A stretch of 35,832 bases of DNA from a virus. The position numbers and the translations under genes are program-made. This document shows, in pieces, positions 1 through 33,909 of the stretch; the first letter of the stretch is position 1, and each line of letters begins with the position of its first letter. The DNA is taken from positions 1 through 35,832 of the IMG/VR virus record IMGVR_UViG_3300020733_000038; one strand, 5' to 3'. The notes under the pieces were generated by a model. It did no database searches and was not told where the DNA came from. It saw only the letters and a list, made by a program, of their open reading frames with translations.

Positions 1-59
1 GTAGCCTACGACAAAACACGCGTCATTTTTTCAACCCTAACAACCTAAAAGCAACCAAA

Positions 60-473
60 ATGGGAACTAGAGGAACAAAACAGAAGGTTATTACCGAAAT
101 TCAATATGCTGAAGGCGCACCAGATCCGTCGCCTTGGCTCGATGACCTTGCTAAAAAAGAATATCGTCGAGTTGTTGCGATAATGTCTGAGACGACAGGA
201 GCATTGCAGCAAGTGGATATGGCAACGCTTGAAACGTATGCACAAAGCTACGCTGACTTTGCACGCTTGACTGAGGAGATTCGCAAGGAAGGAGAAGTGT
301 TGAAAGCGAACAATACGGTGTACACGCAAGCCAATCCGAAATGTGCGCTACGTCAGGCAGCTATGAAGCAATGCTTATCTGCATCTGCAAAGCTTGGCTT
401 TAATCCTGTTGATCGCAAACGCGCATCTAGCAAGACGATGGGCAAAAAGCATAACCCACTTGATGAATTTTAA
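60..473 (+). CDS. Terminase small subunit, P27-like
   Basis: This 137-residue protein probably recognises phage DNA and starts packaging together with the large terminase encoded at 863. Its N-terminus is short and basic, followed by helical segments (PSPWLDDLAKKEYRRV, then TLETYAQSYADFARL). The C-terminal part ends in a basic tail containing NPVDRKRASSK. This layout and length match the P27 family of small terminases. It is the first gene of the head operon and is followed closely by a small gene and TerL, which supports the call. The start ATG at 60 has no strong Shine-Dalgarno sequence. The HNH gene at the other window end would lie directly upstream if the ends join, which is a common arrangement in HK97-like phages. 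Confidence 0.82.
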   Translation: MGTRGTKQKVITEIQYAEGAPDPSPWLDDLAKKEYRRVVAIMSETTGALQQVDMATLETYAQSYADFARLTEEIRKEGEVLKANNTVYTQANPKCALRQAAMKQCLSASAKLGFNPVDRKRASSKTMGKKHNPLDEF

Positions 474-474
474 G

Positions 475-747
475 ATGAACAATATCGAAACCGCAAAACA
501 ACTTGTGTTAGGTGATCGCAATAATGCTTACGGCGATCCTAAAGATGATTACACGCGCACGGCTAAGATCTGGAGCGGACTGCTTGCTGATAAATTAAAA
601 GACGAGATTACACCAGAGGAAGCTATTTTGATGATGGTAGGATTGAAGCTTTCGCGTGAGATCCACAAGCCAAAGTCTGACAACGTGATAGATGCCTATG
701 GGTATCTGCTTTGTTATGAGTGGGCATCAACTGGAAAAAAGCCATGA
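475..747 (+). CDS. DUF6378-like phage protein
   Basis: A 90-residue protein whose ATG at 475 follows the TerS stop by one base. An in-frame upstream start at 394 would overlap TerS heavily and is unlikely. The pattern GDRNNAYGDPKDDYTRTAKIW, then ITPEEAILMMVGLKLSRE, then DNVIDAYGYLLCYE matches DUF6378. I know this as a small helical phage family whose regularly spaced acidic and Tyr/Gly residues loosely recall MazG-type folds. Function is not established, and a nucleotide-related role would be inference. It overlaps the next small gene by ATGA, suggesting translational coupling within the packaging operon. Confidence 0.75.
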   Translation: MNNIETAKQLVLGDRNNAYGDPKDDYTRTAKIWSGLLADKLKDEITPEEAILMMVGLKLSREIHKPKSDNVIDAYGYLLCYEWASTGKKP

Positions 748-7231: not shown

Positions 7232-7687
7232 ATGTATAAAACTTTATACATAGATACTTCTAGCGGTAACGTCGCAACAACTGCAACGGCACTGGATTAT
7301 TATCCACCGATTGAGATGTATTTGCGCGATGTAAGTCAGGTTGGGATCTCATTTACTTACAATGCAGCACCAATCACCTCGAGTGTTTTGGCTAACGGCA
7401 GTAAATTGAATGTTGGAATTAAGACCGCATCAATTACTTCGTCCGTTTTAACTTACGCAAATACCTACACGTTAAGCGGTGATGGCAAAACGGCATTGGT
7501 AAATCTTAATTTAGATACTCCTGCGCTCGTAACTTACTTTAAAAATAACGTTCCACCATCACAACAGAAAGAAACATTCTGGTTTGAAGTGGAAGTGTCT
7601 GCTTCTGACAACTCGTTTCGCAAAACGTATTGTCAGTCAGAAGTTGTAATTCACAAAGACGTAAATTCAACAGGAGCATCGGTGTAA
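7232..7687 (+). CDS. Fibre/baseplate-like beta protein, tandem copy 1
   Basis: A 151-residue protein clearly homologous to the first ~150 residues of the next gene product. Shared blocks include LYIDxxxGxxAsT, M(Y)LRDV, VLANxSxLxxGIKTAS, FWFEVEVSASD and TYCQ. The alternation of polar and hydrophobic residues suggests a beta-sandwich. The layout reminds me of N-terminal domains of receptor-binding upper baseplate proteins (BppU-like), but this is only a fold-level impression. It begins the fibre cassette that interrupts the head-completion genes. Confidence 0.6.
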   Translation: MYKTLYIDTSSGNVATTATALDYYPPIEMYLRDVSQVGISFTYNAAPITSSVLANGSKLNVGIKTASITSSVLTYANTYTLSGDGKTALVNLNLDTPALVTYFKNNVPPSQQKETFWFEVEVSASDNSFRKTYCQSEVVIHKDVNSTGASV

Positions 7688-7688
7688 A

Positions 7689-8459
7689 ATGTACAATTCA
7701 CTTTACATCGACATTGCAACAGGCGACATAGCATCAACCGCAGGAGATGCTGATGTTTATCAACCACTTCAAATGTACTTGCGCGATGTCTTACCGATTT
7801 CGCTGCAATTCCTTTCAAATGGATCTCCTGTAACTTCAACAGTTTTAGCTAATAATAGCATTTTGCGGTTAGGAATTAAAACCGCATCGATGACATCAAC
7901 GCTACTAGCTGCGTCATCGACCTATACTTTAAGCACCGATGGAACGGCTGCTTTAGTTATACTAAACCTTAACACCACGGATTTAGTTAATTACTTTACA
8001 TCTAACGTTTCACCTACCGCAAGACAGGCATCGTTCTGGTTTGAGGTTGAGGTAAGCGCTTCAGATGAATCAACGCGTCAGACATATTGCCAAACGAAGG
8101 TCACGATCATCAAGGACATCAATGCTCCTACGGATCTGCCTCCAACTCCTGCAACAACTGACACGCACGTTTTAAAAGGAGCTTTGTTTGATTCAAACGG
8201 CAATGCGTTTTGTCCTAACTTTCTTAACTTTCGTCCAGATATTACAGGACCATCAGGCGGTGGCTCAAATTTGGATGCAGTACCTACTGCAAGCGCTACT
8301 AAGCCAATGGTTTTTATTACTTTTTACGGCAATCAGTTACGGCCTTGGATACTGACTGCTTCAAGTGGAACTCCAGTCACAGGAACAGGAATAGTTGTTC
8401 CGCTCGATTGGAATTCCTTAACGAACAACGTCCAGTGGACCGAACTCGCTTTCTCCTGA
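7689..8459 (+). CDS. Fibre/baseplate-like beta protein, tandem copy 2
   Basis: A 256-residue paralogue of the upstream gene, extended by about 100 residues. The first part repeats LYIDxxxGxxAST, MYLRDV, VLANNSxLRLGIKTASMTST and FWFEVEVSASDEST. After a Pro-rich linker (DLPPTPATTDTHV), the C-terminal part is a separate small domain ending in WNSLTNNVQWTELAFS. It probably works with the giant fibre whose gene starts within its stop codon (TGATG). The extension may be the junction to that fibre. Function is inferred from position. Confidence 0.6.
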   Translation: MYNSLYIDIATGDIASTAGDADVYQPLQMYLRDVLPISLQFLSNGSPVTSTVLANNSILRLGIKTASMTSTLLAASSTYTLSTDGTAALVILNLNTTDLVNYFTSNVSPTARQASFWFEVEVSASDESTRQTYCQTKVTIIKDINAPTDLPPTPATTDTHVLKGALFDSNGNAFCPNFLNFRPDITGPSGGGSNLDAVPTASATKPMVFITFYGNQLRPWILTASSGTPVTGTGIVVPLDWNSLTNNVQWTELAFS

Positions 8460-26861: not shown

Positions 26862-26973
26862 GCTGCCATTCGTACAAGGGACAGTATCTCAGGGATATTT
26901 AATAGTATCACATCAGCGCAATAGCTCTGCATGATGTCTGAAGATGAGAGTTCGAGCCTCTCATGGCAGCGCC
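26862..26973 (+). ncRNA. tRNA-like element with 8+5 bp acceptor/T helix
   Basis: GCTGCCAT (26862-26869) is the exact complement of ATGGCAGC (26963-26970). Directly before the latter lies a perfect T-arm: GAGAG, loop TTCGAGC, CTCTC (26946-26962). The 3' end continues GCC, like a discriminator G and two of three CCA bases. The 8+5 pairing equals the 13-bp helix of bacterial tRNA-Sec. The middle (76 bases) has hairpins AGTATC/GATATT and ACATCA/TGATGT but no acceptable anticodon arm. It may be a degenerate or unusual tRNA, or an attP copy of a host tRNA 3' end. Confidence 0.35.
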
Positions 26974-27397: not shown

Positions 27398-28546
27398 TTA
27401 TACTTGACCTGATGTAATAGGCTTAATTTGGAAGTACGCCTTACCGTCCTGCTCAGTTGCTCTGCCTTTGTAATGACTCCAAAGCATCTTAGGGCTGGAA
27501 TGGCACAGGATTACGGCAGTCTTAGAAACGTCGCGATTTGCTGCAACGTGGTACGATGCAAATGAATGTCTTAAGCAATTGCGTGGATGTGGTACATCTG
27601 CACGAACAAACGCCTTAGATTTAGCATCAAGATACTGCCTTTCAGTCATTGTCCAAGCGCTAGGGTTTGAACGCTCAATCCAAAGCCACAGGTTTTCTGG
27701 CAAACCATCGATGTACTGCCGTCTGCGAGTCTTGATTTTTAAAGCAGGCAAGGAAACGCCACGCTCCTCTAGGCTAATGTCTGATGGCTCAATTTTGGCT
27801 GCACTCGAGTAACGCAAACCAGCAAATGCCTCTAAAGCCATTCTGCCTAACAATTCTGGTGGCTCGTTTGCGTTCTTTTCAAAGAGCTTTTTAGCGTCAT
27901 CAACGCTTAAAACCTTAACTTCCTCCTCAATGACTTTGACTGGCTTTAAGCCTTCGCATGGGGAGTCAGCAATCAGTTGGTTCTTTTTAAGCCAATTAAA
28001 TAGGCTACGAACGCGCACGGTGTGCGTCCTAATCGTCCAGCCTGCTCCATCAATGCTTGAAAGGTACTGATTGATCTCGTTCCTCGATATGGCATCAATT
28101 GGCCTGTCGCCAAAGTTTTGAATAAGCTTACCGTAAGGCGATTGATAATGAAGCAAAGTAGATGCAGCGATTCCTTCCGCTTTTTTAGCTGCCATGTACT
28201 GCTCCACGGCCTTATCTAAGGGCAACCGTTCTCTTTTAACGCCATATTTTCGCCAACAGGCTAAGACATCGCTTATGGCGACATCTGCCCCTAATTCGGC
28301 CTTAAAAGCTCTCCATTGACGGCTTTCCTCAACGTCCAAACGTAGCGCATCTGTGCCTATTTCCTTAACGTTTGTGGCAAGCGATTTGGCAAAATTGATT
28401 TGGTCAGCAATCGTTTTAAAAGCTTTAAAACGCCTCTTATTTTCAAGAATCCACTGCACAAGGTAAGGGCTTGGCCTGTTTTCAACCGTAATCAGACGAA
28501 TTCCTCGTGGTGGGTTATAACTCTGTTTGCGCTTTTGATTGCTCAT
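27398..28546 (-). CDS. int: Tyrosine recombinase/integrase
   Basis: A 382-residue integrase on the minus strand. The SAM-like core-binding domain spans about 105-195 and the catalytic domain about 210-375. Catalytic residues visible: Arg245 in AGLRYSS, a Lys around 270-272, Arg326 in PRNCLRHSF (with Asn323 where HxxR usually has His), His349 in CHSS and nucleophile Tyr359 in SHYKG. The NCLRHSFASYH block recalls integrases from Verrucomicrobiota prophages, in my memory. It inserts the phage DNA at the host attB site. The start codon context ATGAGCAATCAAA nearly repeats an upstream ATGAACAATCAAA. Confidence 0.92.
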   Translation of the reverse strand: MSNQKRKQSYNPPRGIRLITVENRPSPYLVQWILENKRRFKAFKTIADQINFAKSLATNVKEIGTDALRLDVEESRQWRAFKAELGADVAISDVLACWRKYGVKRERLPLDKAVEQYMAAKKAEGIAASTLLHYQSPYGKLIQNFGDRPIDAISRNEINQYLSSIDGAGWTIRTHTVRVRSLFNWLKKNQLIADSPCEGLKPVKVIEEEVKVLSVDDAKKLFEKNANEPPELLGRMALEAFAGLRYSSAAKIEPSDISLEERGVSLPALKIKTRRRQYIDGLPENLWLWIERSNPSAWTMTERQYLDAKSKAFVRADVPHPRNCLRHSFASYHVAANRDVSKTAVILCHSSPKMLWSHYKGRATEQDGKAYFQIKPITSGQV

Positions 28547-28710
28547 CTTGATTGCGTTTGATTGTTCATTTCACCACTTTTCGACAAACACTCAACACTT
28601 ATCAAATCGTGTTTCTCAGAGTGAAAACCTCTTTTCTTGAGGAAGGTGGTGGACCCTACTGGGGACGCACCTGTCATAGGGAGAAGGGTGCTTGATTGCG
28701 TGTTTGATTG
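28535..28710. repeat. Five TTGATTG repeats around the integrase start
   Basis: TTGATTG occurs at 28535, 28548, 28558, 28692 and 28704, with four of the five followed by C. The two clusters flank about 130 bases and cover the integrase start codon and upstream region. Spacing inside clusters is 10-13 bases, close to one helical turn. They may be sites for Xis, integrase or a regulator. Part of the first cluster is coding (duplicated MNNQ/MSNQ codons). Confidence 0.5.
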
Positions 28711-28855
28711 CGCATTAAAAAGTGTTTTTGAAGGTTTTTTGCAGGCTGAAATCATGCTTGGTATGACTTAATTAGTTCAAATATGTAAAAATACCTAGAT
28801 GATAAAATTATTAGAGTTGTGCTAAAATTGCCGTTTCAACCAGCAATTTTACCCT
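28547..28855. other. Intergenic region between int and rightward small gene
   Basis: About 300 bases between the integrase start and a divergent small gene. It must hold the leftward integrase promoter. It contains TTGATTG repeats, a tRNA-3'-end-like segment (28647-28674, minus strand) and a T-rich and then A/T-rich stretch (28710-28855). A 70-codon minus-strand frame covers it but is not accepted as a gene. No convincing -35/-10 pair was found. Confidence 0.5.
28647..28674 (-). other. tRNA 3'-end-like segment, alternative attP core
   Basis: Read on the minus strand, the segment is ACAGG, TGCGTCC, CCAGT, AGGGTCC, A, CCA. That resembles a T-stem (four of five pairs), a T-loop with two deviations, a 3' acceptor strand, discriminator and CCA end. 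No matching 5' acceptor GGACCCT lies upstream. Integrases often use tRNA 3' ends, and attP carries only that part. It therefore competes with the tRNA-like element at 26862. Confidence 0.3.
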
Positions 28856-29068
28856 TTGAAAATAATCCAGTTTAAACCAACTGAATGGTATTTTCGTAAT
28901 GCGCTTCGCAAAACTCAAACCTTGGATCAAGCCAAGGAAATAGGGCTGATTTTGGTTAGGGAGTTGGAAATTCAAAGGCAGAATCTTAGAGATTTAGGAG
29001 TTAAGCCTAAAAAGACCTATATCCTAGAAGCTGAAGCTTTGGATAAAGGCATAGAATACGAGGCTTAA
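28856..29068 (+). CDS. Small hypothetical protein (70 aa)
   Basis: The frame opens with TTG at 28856, and no ATG or GTG is available before it and after the last in-frame stop at 28823. There is no Shine-Dalgarno sequence. The product is helical and charged (WYFRNALRKTQTLDQAKEIGLILVRELEIQ). Its stop overlaps the stop of the convergent RHH gene by three bases. The coding feel is reasonable but the weak start keeps confidence low; function unknown. Confidence 0.42.
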   Translation: MKIIQFKPTEWYFRNALRKTQTLDQAKEIGLILVRELEIQRQNLRDLGVKPKKTYILEAEALDKGIEYEA

Positions 29069-29265
29069 GCAATTCCCTTGTCGTTAATTTCAGAGTCTAG
29101 TTGAGGCATTGCTTTAACCACTTTGATTTCTGGCGAACGGCCTAGGTCTGCGATCAGCAATTTGGTTATTAAGCCAGACAAACTGGTCCCATGAGCCGTG
29201 ATTGCGTGCTGCTTTGCACGCTCCCACAGATCTTTTTCTAAGCTAATTGTGATGGGAACTTTCAT
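29065..29265 (-). CDS. Ribbon-helix-helix regulator (leftward)
   Basis: A 66-residue protein of the ribbon-helix-helix (Arc/CopG/MetJ-like) class. A short beta strand VPITISL is followed by helix A (EKDLWERAKQHAITAHG) and helix B (SLSGLITKLLIADL). These form dimers that read DNA with the paired strands. The second RHH protein, encoded divergently at 29401, aligns along this whole domain (TI.(I/L)E.(D/E)L, then LL(I/V)ADL.R). It is the best candidate for the lysogeny repressor or a partner of it, since no Cro/CI-type gene is visible. Start ATG lies close to a candidate -10. Confidence 0.78.
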   Translation of the reverse strand: MKVPITISLEKDLWERAKQHAITAHGTSLSGLITKLLIADLGRSPEIKVVKAMPQLDSEINDKGIA

Positions 29266-29280
29266 GGGTATTTACGAGGT

Positions 29281-29366
29281 ATAAACTACGTAGTTTATCC
29301 ATTTAAGCAAGCAGTATTGCGTTTTTTTACTTGCTTTATACGTAAAGCCTACGTAGTTTATACGTA
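29281..29366. promoter_or_regulatory. Divergent promoter/operator region with repeated CTACGTAG
   Basis: A perfect 18-bp palindrome (29281-29298) contains CTACGTAGTTTAT. The same 13 bases recur at 29349-29361, 63 bp away. TTTATACGTA is also repeated 22 bp apart (29335, 29357). Candidate promoters diverge from the inverted repeat AAGCAAG/CTTGCTT (29305-29311, 29330-29336). TTGCTT with a 17-base spacer and TAGTTT (29354-29359) point right; TTGCTT with a 16-base spacer and TAGTTT point left. Both TAGTTT elements fall inside an operator copy, so a bound regulator should block both. Confidence 0.65.
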
Positions 29367-29400
29367 CGCTCTAATTATTATTTACTTACCTTTTTTAAAA

Positions 29401-29604
29401 ATGGCTAGAAAACGCATTCTTAAAGACGCAAAACCTAAAACAATTTGGATTGAATCTGAACTTGAAGCAGCAGCCGTCGAAAGAGCTTTTGAGGCAGGCT
29501 ACAATTTTTCCGAATACCTAGCTAGATTGCTGGTAGCTGATTTGAACCGAAAGGTGGGCATAGCTCACCGAAACCCTCGTCGGTTGATAGGAATGAAAGG
29601 CTAG
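29401..29604 (+). CDS. Ribbon-helix-helix regulator (rightward)
   Basis: A 67-residue protein from ATG 29401; an in-frame start at 29317 would read through the operator and is rejected. After a basic N-terminus (MARKRILKDAKPK), the RHH domain reads strand KTIWIE, helix ELEAAAVERAFEAG, helix NFSEYLARLLVADLNRK, with a basic tail (HRNPRR). It is similar to the leftward RHH protein. As the first gene of the rightward early operon, it is placed like a Cro-type antirepressor or early regulator. Confidence 0.75.
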   Translation: MARKRILKDAKPKTIWIESELEAAAVERAFEAGYNFSEYLARLLVADLNRKVGIAHRNPRRLIGMKG

Positions 29605-29605
29605 C

Positions 29606-29788
29606 ATGAACGAAACCAGCCTTCGTCCTGTTTATACTACGGAGCAATTTTTGACCGAGATACTCGGCAATAACCGTTCGCCTGACTGGATTCGCATGCA
29701 ATGCCGTACAAAGCGAATCAAGACCGTAGCTAAAAGACCTTTCTTAATCCCTCAATCAGAAGCCAAGCGCTTCATTTCTCCAGAATGA
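29606..29788 (+). CDS. Excisionase-like small DNA-binding protein
   Basis: A 60-residue protein starting one base after the RHH stop, with AAAGG upstream at suitable spacing. VYTTEQFLTEILGNNRSPDWIRMQCRTKRI, then PFLIPQSEAKRFI, resembles a winged helix of the HTH_17/Xis type. It could direct excision with the integrase or regulate early genes. It overlaps the following membrane gene by ATGA. Confidence 0.6.
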   Translation: MNETSLRPVYTTEQFLTEILGNNRSPDWIRMQCRTKRIKTVAKRPFLIPQSEAKRFISPE

Positions 29789-29940
29789 AAGAATTTATGA
29801 AAACAATAATCGCAATCATCATGGTTGGACTCGTCGGTGCTTTATTATCAGCAGCGATATTTTGGATGTTTTTAAAGGCCGTCTTTAAAGGCGAAAAGCT
29901 TCAGACAATCTGCGATCAGCTTAACGACGTTCACGATTAA
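29785..29940 (+). CDS. Small single-pass membrane protein (51 aa)
   Basis: An ATGA-coupled gene directly before the endolysin. After MKEFMKT comes a long hydrophobic stretch (IIAIIMVGLVGALLSAAIFW, about residues 8-27), then a short charged tail ending VHD. A second ATG at 29797 could give a form four residues shorter, the kind of dual start seen in holin/antiholin pairs. The position beside a lysozyme-like gene makes a pinholin, antiholin or signal-release role possible. This is inference. Confidence 0.6.
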   Translation: MKEFMKTIIAIIMVGLVGALLSAAIFWMFLKAVFKGEKLQTICDQLNDVHD

Positions 29941-29946
29941 TTAGCG

Positions 29947-30459
29947 ATGCAGCCAGTAATCGAACATCATTCGCAGCACATCGTGATTCCAAACGCTCTT
30001 ATTGAAGCGCTTATAATCGTGGAATCTCACGGTGACGATCTTGCTTACGGATTGGATGGAGAGGTTGGCTGCCTGCAAATATCTCAAAAGGTGCTTGATG
30101 ATGTTAATCGGTTTTATCCGATACATTGGACATGGCACGATTGCTTAATACGCGAACGGTCTAAAAAGATTTGTCGCGTTTATTTAGAACACTACGCAAC
30201 AGAAAAGCGTATTGGTAGAAAACCAACGTTAGAGGATATGGCACGCATTTGGAATGCTGGTCCTAAAGGTTGGAAATACGACATCACTAAAGAATATGCG
30301 CAAAATGTATTGCGCGTAATGCAGCAATTAAATTTTGGCGGTTCGCCGTCCACTCAATCCGAGACAAGTAATGCGAAGAACGGGGAGACTGACGCAACAG
30401 TCGCCGTCAATAACTCCTGTGAAGGTTTACGACTTTCACAGGAACAATTTCAGAACTAA
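29947..30459 (+). CDS. Endolysin, lytic transglycosylase-like
   Basis: A 170-residue lysozyme-fold protein. LIEALIIVESHGDDLAYG carries the candidate catalytic Glu26. EVGCLQIS (about 39-46) matches the G(L/C)(M/L)QI motif of SLT-type transglycosylases, and DMARIWNAGPKGW matches the (R/W)xxWNGGPxG motif. The last ~45 residues are Ser/Thr/Asn-rich and look disordered. It should cut peptidoglycan at host lysis. It lies in the early operon, away from the tail genes, and no signal peptide is seen, so it needs a holin. Confidence 0.78.
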   Translation: MQPVIEHHSQHIVIPNALIEALIIVESHGDDLAYGLDGEVGCLQISQKVLDDVNRFYPIHWTWHDCLIRERSKKICRVYLEHYATEKRIGRKPTLEDMARIWNAGPKGWKYDITKEYAQNVLRVMQQLNFGGSPSTQSETSNAKNGETDATVAVNNSCEGLRLSQEQFQN

Positions 30460-30638
30460 TGAGCGATATAACAGACATCGAGCGAGACATGGGAGACGGC
30501 GATAATACTAAGGAATGCCGTTATTGTAGAAATGGCAGAATCTCGGTCGATGGCGGTTCGCTAATTTACAGATGTCCTGATTGTGAGGGTAAAGGATACA
30601 TCAATTTACCTAAGCTCGAGGACGACGATCCAGAATAA
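30459..30638 (+). CDS. Small zinc-finger protein (59 aa)
   Basis: Starts inside the endolysin stop (TAATG). The product has two CxxC pairs: Cys20/Cys23 and Cys39/Cys42, the latter in YRCPDCEGKGYINL, like the DnaJ-type zinc motif. Both termini are acidic (SDITDIERDMGDGD and LEDDDPE). It is probably a single zinc knuckle mediating protein contacts in early functions; exact role unknown. Confidence 0.6.
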   Translation: MSDITDIERDMGDGDNTKECRYCRNGRISVDGGSLIYRCPDCEGKGYINLPKLEDDDPE

Positions 30639-30669
30639 TTTTTGTTCAATAAAAAAATAAATACCCACA

Positions 30670-31548
30670 ATGGCTACAAAACTAAAAGCAAAAGCACCAG
30701 AGCTAGTTAAGGCTGGTAAAATCAAGGCCGTACTTTACGGACCTTCTGGCGTTGGCAAAACCACGTTAGCACTCAGCTTTCCTACACCTTACTATTTTGA
30801 CGTAGAAGGTGGAGCGAAAGGTCCACAATACCGTGAACTGCTTAAATCAGCAGGCGGTGCTTATATGGGTCCAGAAGATGGAACACTTAGCTTTGATACT
30901 TTGATTGAGCAGATGTCGGCTTTGGCTACTGAAAAGCACGGCTTTAAAACGCTGATTGTTGATTCGCTAACTAAGCTTTACCAGACCGCAATTGCAACTG
31001 AAGCAGAACGCTTAGGAGACAAGGACGCATTTGGTGCATCTAAGCGTCCAGCAATAGCTCAAATGCGCAGACTCGTGATGTGGTCATCACGCCTAGACAT
31101 GAACATTTGGTTTGTATGTCACGAAGCTAAAGAATGGGGATTGGTAAACGGTCAACGCTCAGAAGTTGGAACTGTTCCTGATGTATGGGAAAAGTTGATC
31201 TATGAACTAGATTTATCGGTGCAGGCAATTAAGCGTGGTCCGCAACGCATGGCTCTTGTTAAGAAATCACGCCTACTTGCTTTTCCTGACGGTGATTCAT
31301 TTCCGCTAGAATATAAAGAATTTGCTGCACGCCACGGTAAGGAAACCGTCGAAGGCGAATCGGAAACAATCACCCTGGCATTACCTGAGCAAATTGCAGA
31401 AGTCCGCAAGCTTTTAGACATCGTTAAAGTCGATGAAGCAACGATTCAAAAGGGATTCGACAAAGCTGGCGTATCTTCGTGGGAGGAAATGACGCAAGAG
31501 CAAATCGCAGCATGGCAAACATTTTTAAAAAAGAAAATCGCATCCTAA
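30670..31548 (+). CDS. Sak4-like RecA-fold ATPase (recombination)
   Basis: A 292-residue phage nucleotide-binding protein. It has Walker A GPSGVGKT (24-31), an early FDVEGG segment, a Walker B TLIVDSL (Asp98) and MNIWFVCHEAKEW (sensor region). This is the Sak4 type of single-strand annealing ATPase in phages. The gene after it encodes an SSB-like protein, the usual Sak4 partner. The C-terminal ~60 residues are helical (LLDIVKVDEATIQKGFDKAG). It probably acts in phage DNA recombination and repair. Confidence 0.85.
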   Translation: MATKLKAKAPELVKAGKIKAVLYGPSGVGKTTLALSFPTPYYFDVEGGAKGPQYRELLKSAGGAYMGPEDGTLSFDTLIEQMSALATEKHGFKTLIVDSLTKLYQTAIATEAERLGDKDAFGASKRPAIAQMRRLVMWSSRLDMNIWFVCHEAKEWGLVNGQRSEVGTVPDVWEKLIYELDLSVQAIKRGPQRMALVKKSRLLAFPDGDSFPLEYKEFAARHGKETVEGESETITLALPEQIAEVRKLLDIVKVDEATIQKGFDKAGVSSWEEMTQEQIAAWQTFLKKKIAS

Positions 31549-32297: not shown

Positions 32298-32659
32298 TGA
32301 GTGAATCGCAAATACAACGTGCCGTGATGAATTGGTGGGCTTTGGCTCATCGAGGATTAGGCATTCCAGACGAAAGGCTCCTTATGGCATTTCCGCTACA
32401 AGGAGCGCGTACGCCACGCAATGGTGCGCGTATGAAAGCAGAAGGATTAAGGAAAGGCACGCCAGATATGTTTCTGGCGGTTGCACGCAAAGGAAAGCAT
32501 GGGCTTTGGATCGAGTTAAAGGCAGAGAAAGGCCGTTTATCCGATTCTCAGTTTGAGATGCTAAACATTTTAACTGCGCAAAATTTCAAAGCCGTTCAAA
32601 CGACCGGATTTGATGATACATTAAACATTTTAACTAACTATTTAAGTGAACAATTTTAA
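32297..32659 (+). CDS. VRR-NUC domain nuclease
   Basis: A 120-residue PD-(D/E)xK-type nuclease from ATG 32297; the upstream in-frame start at 32282 is not needed. SESQIQRAVMNWW contains the N-terminal Glu helix, KGTPDMFLAV holds the catalytic Asp, and LWIELKAEKGRLSDSQ holds the ExK motif. It is a single-domain VRR-NUC like many phage and virus proteins that process branched DNA. It is flanked by recombination and methylation genes. Confidence 0.86.
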   Translation: MSESQIQRAVMNWWALAHRGLGIPDERLLMAFPLQGARTPRNGARMKAEGLRKGTPDMFLAVARKGKHGLWIELKAEKGRLSDSQFEMLNILTAQNFKAVQTTGFDDTLNILTNYLSEQF

Positions 32660-32966
32660 CATCCGACAAGCAGACAGTGAACGCTTGGGATCAAAGGGCG
32701 CACTTTTCGATATGATTGCGAGAAAAGCGCCACTATTGATGAAAACTGGTGGAGGCAACTTATCTCGAATCAGCCAAGTATGGGCTAAGAGAACCACAAT
32801 TCAAGATCGTGAGCTTTTTGTAAGGCGCTTACAGGAGCTTAGAGCTTTAGGATATACAGATTTCAAAGCTCGCGAAAAAATATCCGCAGAGACCGGATTT
32901 TCTGCACAAACGGTATGGAATTATACCGGAGGCAAAAAACCTAAAACAAATCTTACAAAAAGATGA
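32646..32966 (+). CDS. Hypothetical protein with possible HTH (106 aa)
   Basis: Opens with GTG at 32646, overlapping the nuclease gene by 14 bases. No Shine-Dalgarno sequence is seen, and an ATG at 32712 would give a shorter form. LFVRRLQELRALGYTDFKAREKISAETGFSAQTVWNYTGG reads like a helix-turn-helix near the C-terminus (TGFSAQTVWNY as recognition helix), followed by a Lys-rich end. It overlaps the methyltransferase gene by ATGA. Confidence 0.55.
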   Translation: MNNFNIRQADSERLGSKGALFDMIARKAPLLMKTGGGNLSRISQVWAKRTTIQDRELFVRRLQELRALGYTDFKAREKISAETGFSAQTVWNYTGGKKPKTNLTKR

Positions 32967-33616
32967 GTTTACCGCCTCCATATTATCAAGACGAATATGT
33001 TACGATATACCATGCTAATTGTCGTGATGTAGCTCCGAATTTAGGAAAATTTGATCTTTTATTAACTGATTCACCTTACGGTATTAAAGCTGATGAGGCA
33101 GCTAGTAAGAATAAAGGAAAGTGGGGATGGAAAGATTATGGATCATCAAATTGGGATCGTGAACGTCCAACAAAAGAAGATTTTGATATTATTTTGTCTT
33201 TAGCAGATTACGCAATTATTTGGGGCGGTAATTATTTTGCAGATTTACTTCCACCAAGTATGGGATGGCTCGCTTGGGATAAAGAACAACGAAACTTTTC
33301 ATTAGCTGATTTTGAGATGGCGTGGACAAGTTTCTGGGTAGCTGCACGTTGCTTTGATTATTCGCGAGCTAAGGCGATGCAGGATGGAAAACAACATCCT
33401 ACACAAAAGCCAATTAGTTTGATGAATTTTTGCATCAATCACGCGGACGAAAGAGCTAAAACTCCAATGAATACGATTATTGATCCATTTATGGGAAGCG
33501 GAACGACTTTAAGATCTGCCAAAGATTTAGGCAGAAAAGCAGTAGGTATAGAAATTAATGAGGCTTACTGCGAAATCGCAGCAAATCGAATGGCACAGGA
33601 AGTTTTTGCATTATGA
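32963..33616 (+). CDS. DNA methyltransferase (N6-adenine/N4-cytosine type)
   Basis: A 217-residue amino-methyltransferase. Motif IV appears first as TDSPYG (Asp36-Ser-Pro-Tyr), with Ser in the second position of the usual DPPY/SPPY. The SAM-binding motif I DPFMGSGTT comes last (about 174-182), followed by GRKAVGIEI. This beta-class order and small size are usual for orphan phage enzymes. KQHPTQKP before motif I is also a family hallmark. No restriction partner is seen, so it probably protects phage DNA or regulates. Confidence 0.87.
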   Translation: MSLPPPYYQDEYVTIYHANCRDVAPNLGKFDLLLTDSPYGIKADEAASKNKGKWGWKDYGSSNWDRERPTKEDFDIILSLADYAIIWGGNYFADLLPPSMGWLAWDKEQRNFSLADFEMAWTSFWVAARCFDYSRAKAMQDGKQHPTQKPISLMNFCINHADERAKTPMNTIIDPFMGSGTTLRSAKDLGRKAVGIEINEAYCEIAANRMAQEVFAL

Positions 33617-33909
33617 AATTACTCAAAATTGAAATCATCAAAAAAATAGTTTCTGAGCATTTTGGTTATGCTTCAGAAGTCGTATTTTCAAGAGACAGAA
33701 AGTCTGGATTAGTTAAAGCACGACATTCTGCTATTTATATTACATCTGTTTTAACGTGGTACGGAAGAATGGAGATTGCTGAAGCTTATAAAATGAATGT
33801 CAGCAACATTTCATATATTTTAAGCACTGTTGAAGATTTTAAGTCTGTAGATCCACGGTTCGCTAAAGAACTCGAGGAGCTTAAACAAAAATGCGAACAA
33901 GCAATTTAA
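33613..33909 (+). CDS. DnaA domain IV-like DNA-binding protein
   Basis: A 98-residue protein that looks like a free-standing DnaA domain IV. IKKIVSEHFGYASEVVFSRDRKSGLVKARHSAIYI corresponds to the V..(Y/H)FG....(L/F).S..R...(V/I).AR..A.Y. signature. TSVLTWYGRMEIAEAYKMNVSNISYIL corresponds to the T..S..EI...F....S.V helix. It lacks an ATPase domain. It could bind the phage origin in the initiator gene at 34495 or compete with host DnaA. Overlaps the methyltransferase by ATGA. Confidence 0.68.
   Translation: MKLLKIEIIKKIVSEHFGYASEVVFSRDRKSGLVKARHSAIYITSVLTWYGRMEIAEAYKMNVSNISYILSTVEDFKSVDPRFAKELEELKQKCEQAI

Follow-up and report, generated by a model that had tools for sequence, protein, structure and literature searches.

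How might an apparently temperate phage keep its lytic genes silent when its genome encodes no recognizable helix-turn-helix (HTH) repressor of the CI/Cro type? The question arises from an IMG/VR virus record of 35,832 bases (analyzed at full length and referred to here as the window), in which two short genes for ribbon-helix-helix (RHH)-like proteins are transcribed away from each other. The structural genes run in the order terminase small subunit, terminase large subunit, portal, major head protein, tape measure, and tail proteins; these are followed by a tyrosine integrase, the RHH pair, and then an early operon encoding a Sak4/RecA-like ATPase, a DNA methylase, a replication initiation protein, and an HNH endonuclease. 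We also noted a tandem pair of duplicated genes (7232-7687 and 7689-8459; 56% identity over 146 aa) and, in the early operon, a 98-aa protein (33613-33909) that is scarcely more than the C-terminal DNA-binding domain of DnaA (domain IV-like; Pfam Bac_DnaA_C, 4e-8). A related contig, L038, joins the end of the record to its start: it begins with the final 18 bases of a variant contig, L008 (AAGAGTGCCAGCGTCCAC), followed by six further bases and then the first bases of the window. The record is essentially complete, i.e., a whole genome minus approximately 6 nt, and because L038 bridges its ends across so small a gap, the absence of a gene is meaningful.

The integrase gene (27398-28546, minus strand) matches the PHROG integrase family at 5e-28 and XerA/XerD-type recombinases in the 1e-10 range, suggesting a temperate lifestyle; it and the leftward RHH gene are the only convincing leftward genes in the record. 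Past its 3' end lies a candidate attP read from the sequence (26938-26973, plus strand), which resembles a tRNA 3' end with the T-arm GAGAG-TTCGAGC-CTCTC (GAGAGTTCGAGCCTCTC). The T-arm hairpin is present in the computed fold (z -0.15 for the whole region), and neither ARAGORN nor Rfam called a tRNA at these positions; from this attP-like stretch, a tRNA gene is likely to be the attachment site. A second tRNA-end-like stretch (28646-28665; reverse complement CCCAGTAGGGTCCACCA) is located between the start of the integrase gene and a possible 70-aa gene (28856-29068, plus strand) that has a TTG start and no family match, is convergent with the leftward RHH gene, and may have its own promoter (28799-28828, promoter-like with a TG in the consensus scan).

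The leftward gene of the pair, RHH- (29065-29265, minus strand), encodes 66 aa, and the rightward gene, RHH+ (29401-29604, plus strand), encodes 67 aa from an ATG at 29401 and heads the rightward early operon. Two claims of an earlier note on this DNA, that two short reading frames diverge from a 135-bp gap (29266-29400) and that their products align with one another, were both confirmed: by BLASTP the proteins are 40% identical over 40 aa (E 8e-7), they form the second-best pair in an all-against-all comparison of approximately 50 phage proteins, and their alignment scored 26.6 bits, above the maximum of 21.2 bits in 2000 shuffles. RHH- matched Pfam DUF6364, which we take to be an RHH-type family, at 29.1 bits (cut-off 27.3), and is placed among the RHH families by that match; RHH+ had no Pfam match and is placed there by its similarity to RHH- alone. 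Profile comparison with CopG and Arc gave nothing significant, and a PDB sequence search yielded no match to any RHH protein. AF2 monomer models made without an alignment were of low confidence (pLDDT 62 and 67 for the two), with a strand (4-9) and helices (11-25 and 29-41) in RHH- and helices (20-31 and 36-51) in RHH+. Foldseek found no match for the weak RHH- model and low-significance matches alone for that of RHH+, the best being a ParD RHH domain; we set the monomer models aside as too weak to prove the fold. Both proteins are thus probably, rather than provenly, RHH proteins, and the fold proposed for RHH+ derives mainly from its similarity to RHH-.

Beyond RHH+, a basic protein of 60 aa is encoded 1 bp downstream (29606-29788, plus strand); it matched nothing in Pfam or PHROG and nothing meaningful in NCBIfam, and by eye it appears to resemble an excisionase or MerR-type HTH protein. 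The beginning of the rightward early operon (29785-31548, plus strand) encodes a small membrane protein, an SLT-like protein of 170 aa, a zinc-ribbon-like protein, and the Sak4/RecA-like ATPase (30670-31548, plus strand). The product of 29947-30459, three genes past RHH+, is lytic-transglycosylase-like, with weak SLT and PHROG matches.

The interval between the two start codons contains a cluster of TACGTA hexamers that the earlier note had missed. Site 1 (29281-29298) is a perfect 18-bp palindrome (ATAAACTACGTAGTTTAT), located 15 bp ahead of the RHH- start codon and holding one TACGTA (29287-29292). Site 2 (29339-29366), 34 bp ahead of the RHH+ start, has the form TACGTA-N5-TACGTA-N5-TACGTA, with an exact period of 11 bp, or about one helical turn. 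The hexamers, which start at 29287, 29339, 29350, and 29361, are every copy in the 35.8-kb record: some 6.5 would be expected across it, and all four fall within 80 bp of the gap. Among the 64 palindromic hexamers, TACGTA alone has four copies that fall within 135 bp of one another, any palindromic hexamer reached four copies in 2 of 2000 shuffles of the gap, and the triple site was absent from shuffled windows even with three mismatches allowed. The palindrome described earlier and its partial copy (29344-29361) are both present, with none expected in shuffles; the two copies of CTACGTAG are 63 bp apart from center to center, a distance of six helical turns if each is taken as 10.5 bp. The 13-bp sequence CTACGTAGTTTAT, previously put forward as the operator unit, does occur twice (29286-29298 and 29349-29361), but its role as an operator is not supported, as it is broken in a natural variant (discussed later). 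We regard as supported a divergent pair of RHH-like paralogs around a shared putative operator region, with the integrase on one side and the early operon on the other; the locus is a genuine and coherent regulatory module.

We considered whether the TACGTA cluster might serve something else, such as integrase arm sites, a host regulator, a replication initiator, or an RNA hairpin. Consistent with such a role, the exact 18-bp palindrome occurs at 46 other virus loci (L065-L110), often beside a T4-late-promoter-like ATAAATA; another phage, represented by L031 and L035, has a TACGTA triple between an integrase gene and an opposing operon; and RNA from around site 1 gives a more stable computed fold than shuffled versions of it (z -2.7). 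Conversely, the phage has these sites only in the interval between two divergent regulator genes, the att-like sequence is 2.3 kb distant and is not flanked by them, and the palindrome is followed by no T-run on either strand. We regard this alternative as highly improbable. The settings of the 46 loci are unrelated, and the palindrome was rejected as a diagnostic mark on that ground; many of its copies have common flanks, and therefore represent an element conserved in a different group of phages. The L031/L035 triple (231-258 and 892-919, respectively) also has an 11-bp period, falls within a long perfect inverted repeat, and has an RHH-like gene nearby (L035 1412-1690). The TACGTA-N5 triple pattern was found elsewhere in phages at five loci, plus two from the records of the variant; none of the five has a comparable divergent RHH pair.

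Contigs L003 and L008 share one variant of the locus, 98-99% identical to the window. Its four changes in the gap (29330C>G, 29348C>A, 29359T>A, and 29386T>A) leave every one of the four hexamers intact, as well as the 18-bp palindrome, while each of the two 5-bp spacers of site 2 carries one change. One of these spacer changes converts the right-hand TAGTTT to TAGTTA and disrupts the 13-bp unit. Because the hexamers are kept while the 13-bp unit is disrupted, the variant favors TACGTA as the recognized unit and disfavors the right-hand promoter that had been proposed; coming from one lineage and four changes, this evidence is suggestive rather than statistically conclusive, and TACGTA appears to be the better candidate for the repeated unit. 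In the coding regions of the variant, RHH- is altered at its penultimate residue and otherwise shows three synonymous substitutions, RHH+ carries R3K and a single synonymous substitution, and the adjacent 60-aa gene has two changes, both synonymous. Separately, the variant phage (L007 and L008; L008 4159-4176) is without 400 bp of the window (32980-33379), a loss that disrupts the DNA methylase gene (32963-33616) intact in the window.

More distant relatives of the locus were sought in several collections. No distant homologs of either RHH protein were found in IMG/VR or INPHARED, nor any of RHH- among plasmids. Relatives of the Sak4 protein (57-76%) are preceded by different genes, and the records searched contain no RHH- match. 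Two terminase relatives, G003 and G004, were tried as sources of a comparable locus and rejected, as their records gave no integrase or RHH- match; the genes flanking G004, by eye bacterial and including a glycoside-hydrolase-like one, suggest, but do not prove, a Verrucomicrobiota host.

The two outward-facing TTGCTT/TAGTTT promoters described in the earlier note did not withstand analysis. Neither was listed in a sigma-70 consensus scan. A sigma-70 matrix scan ranked the left one first and the right one tenth on their respective strands, with scores of 4.4 and 2.0, both lower than the median of the best scores that shuffled sequence gives (6.2), although the host consensus may differ; the -10 element of the right one, moreover, is lost in the variant. 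By either scan, the gap (29266-29400) contains no convincing sigma-70 promoter.

The DUF6364 match of RHH-, together with its weak similarity to CcdA (0.062, not significant), raises a different explanation, namely that RHH- is an antitoxin-like or maintenance regulator, belonging either to a toxin-antitoxin system or to a partition system in which the TACGTA repeats serve as the centromere. RHH partition proteins do bind arrays of short repeats (PMC9499535). Against this, no toxin partner was recognized in the operon of either RHH gene and PADLOC returned no match, no ParA-type ATPase was found adjoining RHH-, the two paralogous genes point apart rather than forming an operon of RHH gene and partner, and the tyrosine integrase already provides maintenance through integration. 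We consider such a role improbable.

The earlier observation that no HTH-type CI/Cro gene is seen was borne out, as none exceeded the curated cut-offs among the early proteins, small proteins, and leftward reading frames scanned. The nearest HTH candidate, encoded at 32646-32966 inside the rightward early operon, has a weak match to a transcriptional-regulator PHROG (E 0.0032). This candidate bears on a further alternative, in which the RHH pair exerts local, secondary control (in the style of the immI region of phage P22, or over excision by way of the Xis-like gene past RHH+) and an unrecognized repressor of the phage or host keeps lysogeny. The weak match at 32646-32966 and the many early proteins that have no family match are in its favor, as is the precedent of P22, in which an identical mnt/arc layout (X01916) is secondary to the c2/cro switch (PMC2629481). 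However, the weak HTH candidate lies within an operon that a prophage should silence, no antirepressor match was found among the genes downstream of RHH+, and the pair occupies the usual place of a primary switch, between integrase and early operon. Secondary control is, in our judgment, rather unlikely.

We compared the locus with P22 immI using the P22 record itself (X01916), where mnt (28-279, minus strand) and arc (370-531, plus strand) are separated by a 90-bp gap with overlapping promoters. In both phages, two short genes for RHH repressors (putative here) diverge from one intergenic control region, and the rightward gene leads an operon. The earlier proposal of P22 Arc/Mnt as the nearest analog is therefore apt but understated, since the topology is the same; the difference consequently lies in genomic position and downstream genes, not in the layout of the circuit. 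The gap here is 135 bp, compared with 90 bp in P22, and its putative operators are TACGTA hexamers; unlike P22, in which ant follows arc, no antirepressor is located downstream of RHH+, and no c2/cro-type HTH switch was found. No significant sequence similarity to Arc or Mnt was found (phrog_3180, E 0.24; profile comparison not significant). Thus, while the locus may work like immI, we do not class it as a member, because an antirepressor and Arc/Mnt homology were both sought and neither was found. By analogy and position, RHH- is a candidate prophage repressor in a CI/Mnt-like place, and RHH+ would sit in that of Cro or Arc.

An RHH protein as principal lysogeny regulator, the role proposed here, has a precedent in F55 of SSV1, a lysogeny repressor that binds 11-nt sites repeated both in its own promoter and in early ones (PMC9608457). 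F55 differs in being the single regulator of an archaeal fusellovirus, with the site ATAGATAGAGT and no divergent RHH partner described (PMC9608457). The arrangement also resembles the immunity region of lambda, in having two divergent repressors, common operators (putative here), and one repressor gene directed toward the early operon; CI and Cro are HTH proteins, whereas those here are RHH-like and the search for an HTH repressor found none. In SPbeta, the Arc-type RHH protein YosL belongs to the lysis-lysogeny circuit and acts toward lytic growth, while the master repressor, MrpR, is another protein and, in the portion of the account used here, no divergent RHH pair is seen (PMC10516654). 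Our search of the open-access literature, which was incomplete, found no tailed phage described with a divergent RHH pair as its main switch.

We propose, as the best and somewhat probable reading, that an immI-like divergent pair of paralogous RHH proteins, binding TACGTA subsites in a common promoter region, is the main lysogeny switch; judged jointly with it, and at the same strength, the phage would be temperate and siphovirus-like, with the RHH locus as its immunity region. RHH- would be the prophage repressor, its dimers binding cooperatively, next to each other along a single face of the DNA at the phased triple site, and so turning off RHH+ and the early operon. RHH dimers of RelB lie side by side on hexad repeats in this manner, on one face of the DNA (PMC2812701). 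At higher levels, RHH- would also fill the lone palindrome next to the start of its gene, limiting its own synthesis. RHH+ might bind the same subsites with a different preference, or pair with RHH-; it would block RHH- synthesis during lytic growth and antagonize RHH- after induction.

This main-switch reading is supported by (i) the paralogy of the two proteins and the DUF6364 match, (ii) the exclusive clustering of TACGTA, its 11-bp phasing, and the retention of the hexamers in the variant, (iii) the mostly synonymous changes in the RHH genes, (iv) the integrase and a near-complete genome in which the integrase and RHH- are the only convincing leftward genes and no HTH repressor exceeded a cut-off, and (v) the topology of P22 immI and the precedents of RelB hexads (PMC2812701) and SSV1 F55 (PMC9608457). 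It is weakened by the weak structural models, the lack of a convincing promoter, the single variant lineage, the lack of distant homologs, and the weak HTH-regulator match of 32646-32966.

A stronger version, which we advance tentatively and hold at slightly short of an even chance, is that this tailed bacterial phage has a paralogous RHH pair as its sole switch, an immI-type module either promoted to the CI/Cro position or ancestral to it, with possible heterodimers as the decision device. Should the RHH pair prove to be the main switch, the logic of CI and Cro, two divergent repressors with shared operators, would have emerged in a tailed phage from an unrelated DNA-binding fold, and as its primary switch. 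Such phages would then escape prophage searches that depend on HTH repressors, and the small operator, with its equal 11-bp subsites, would offer a compact system in which to study competition between paralogs.
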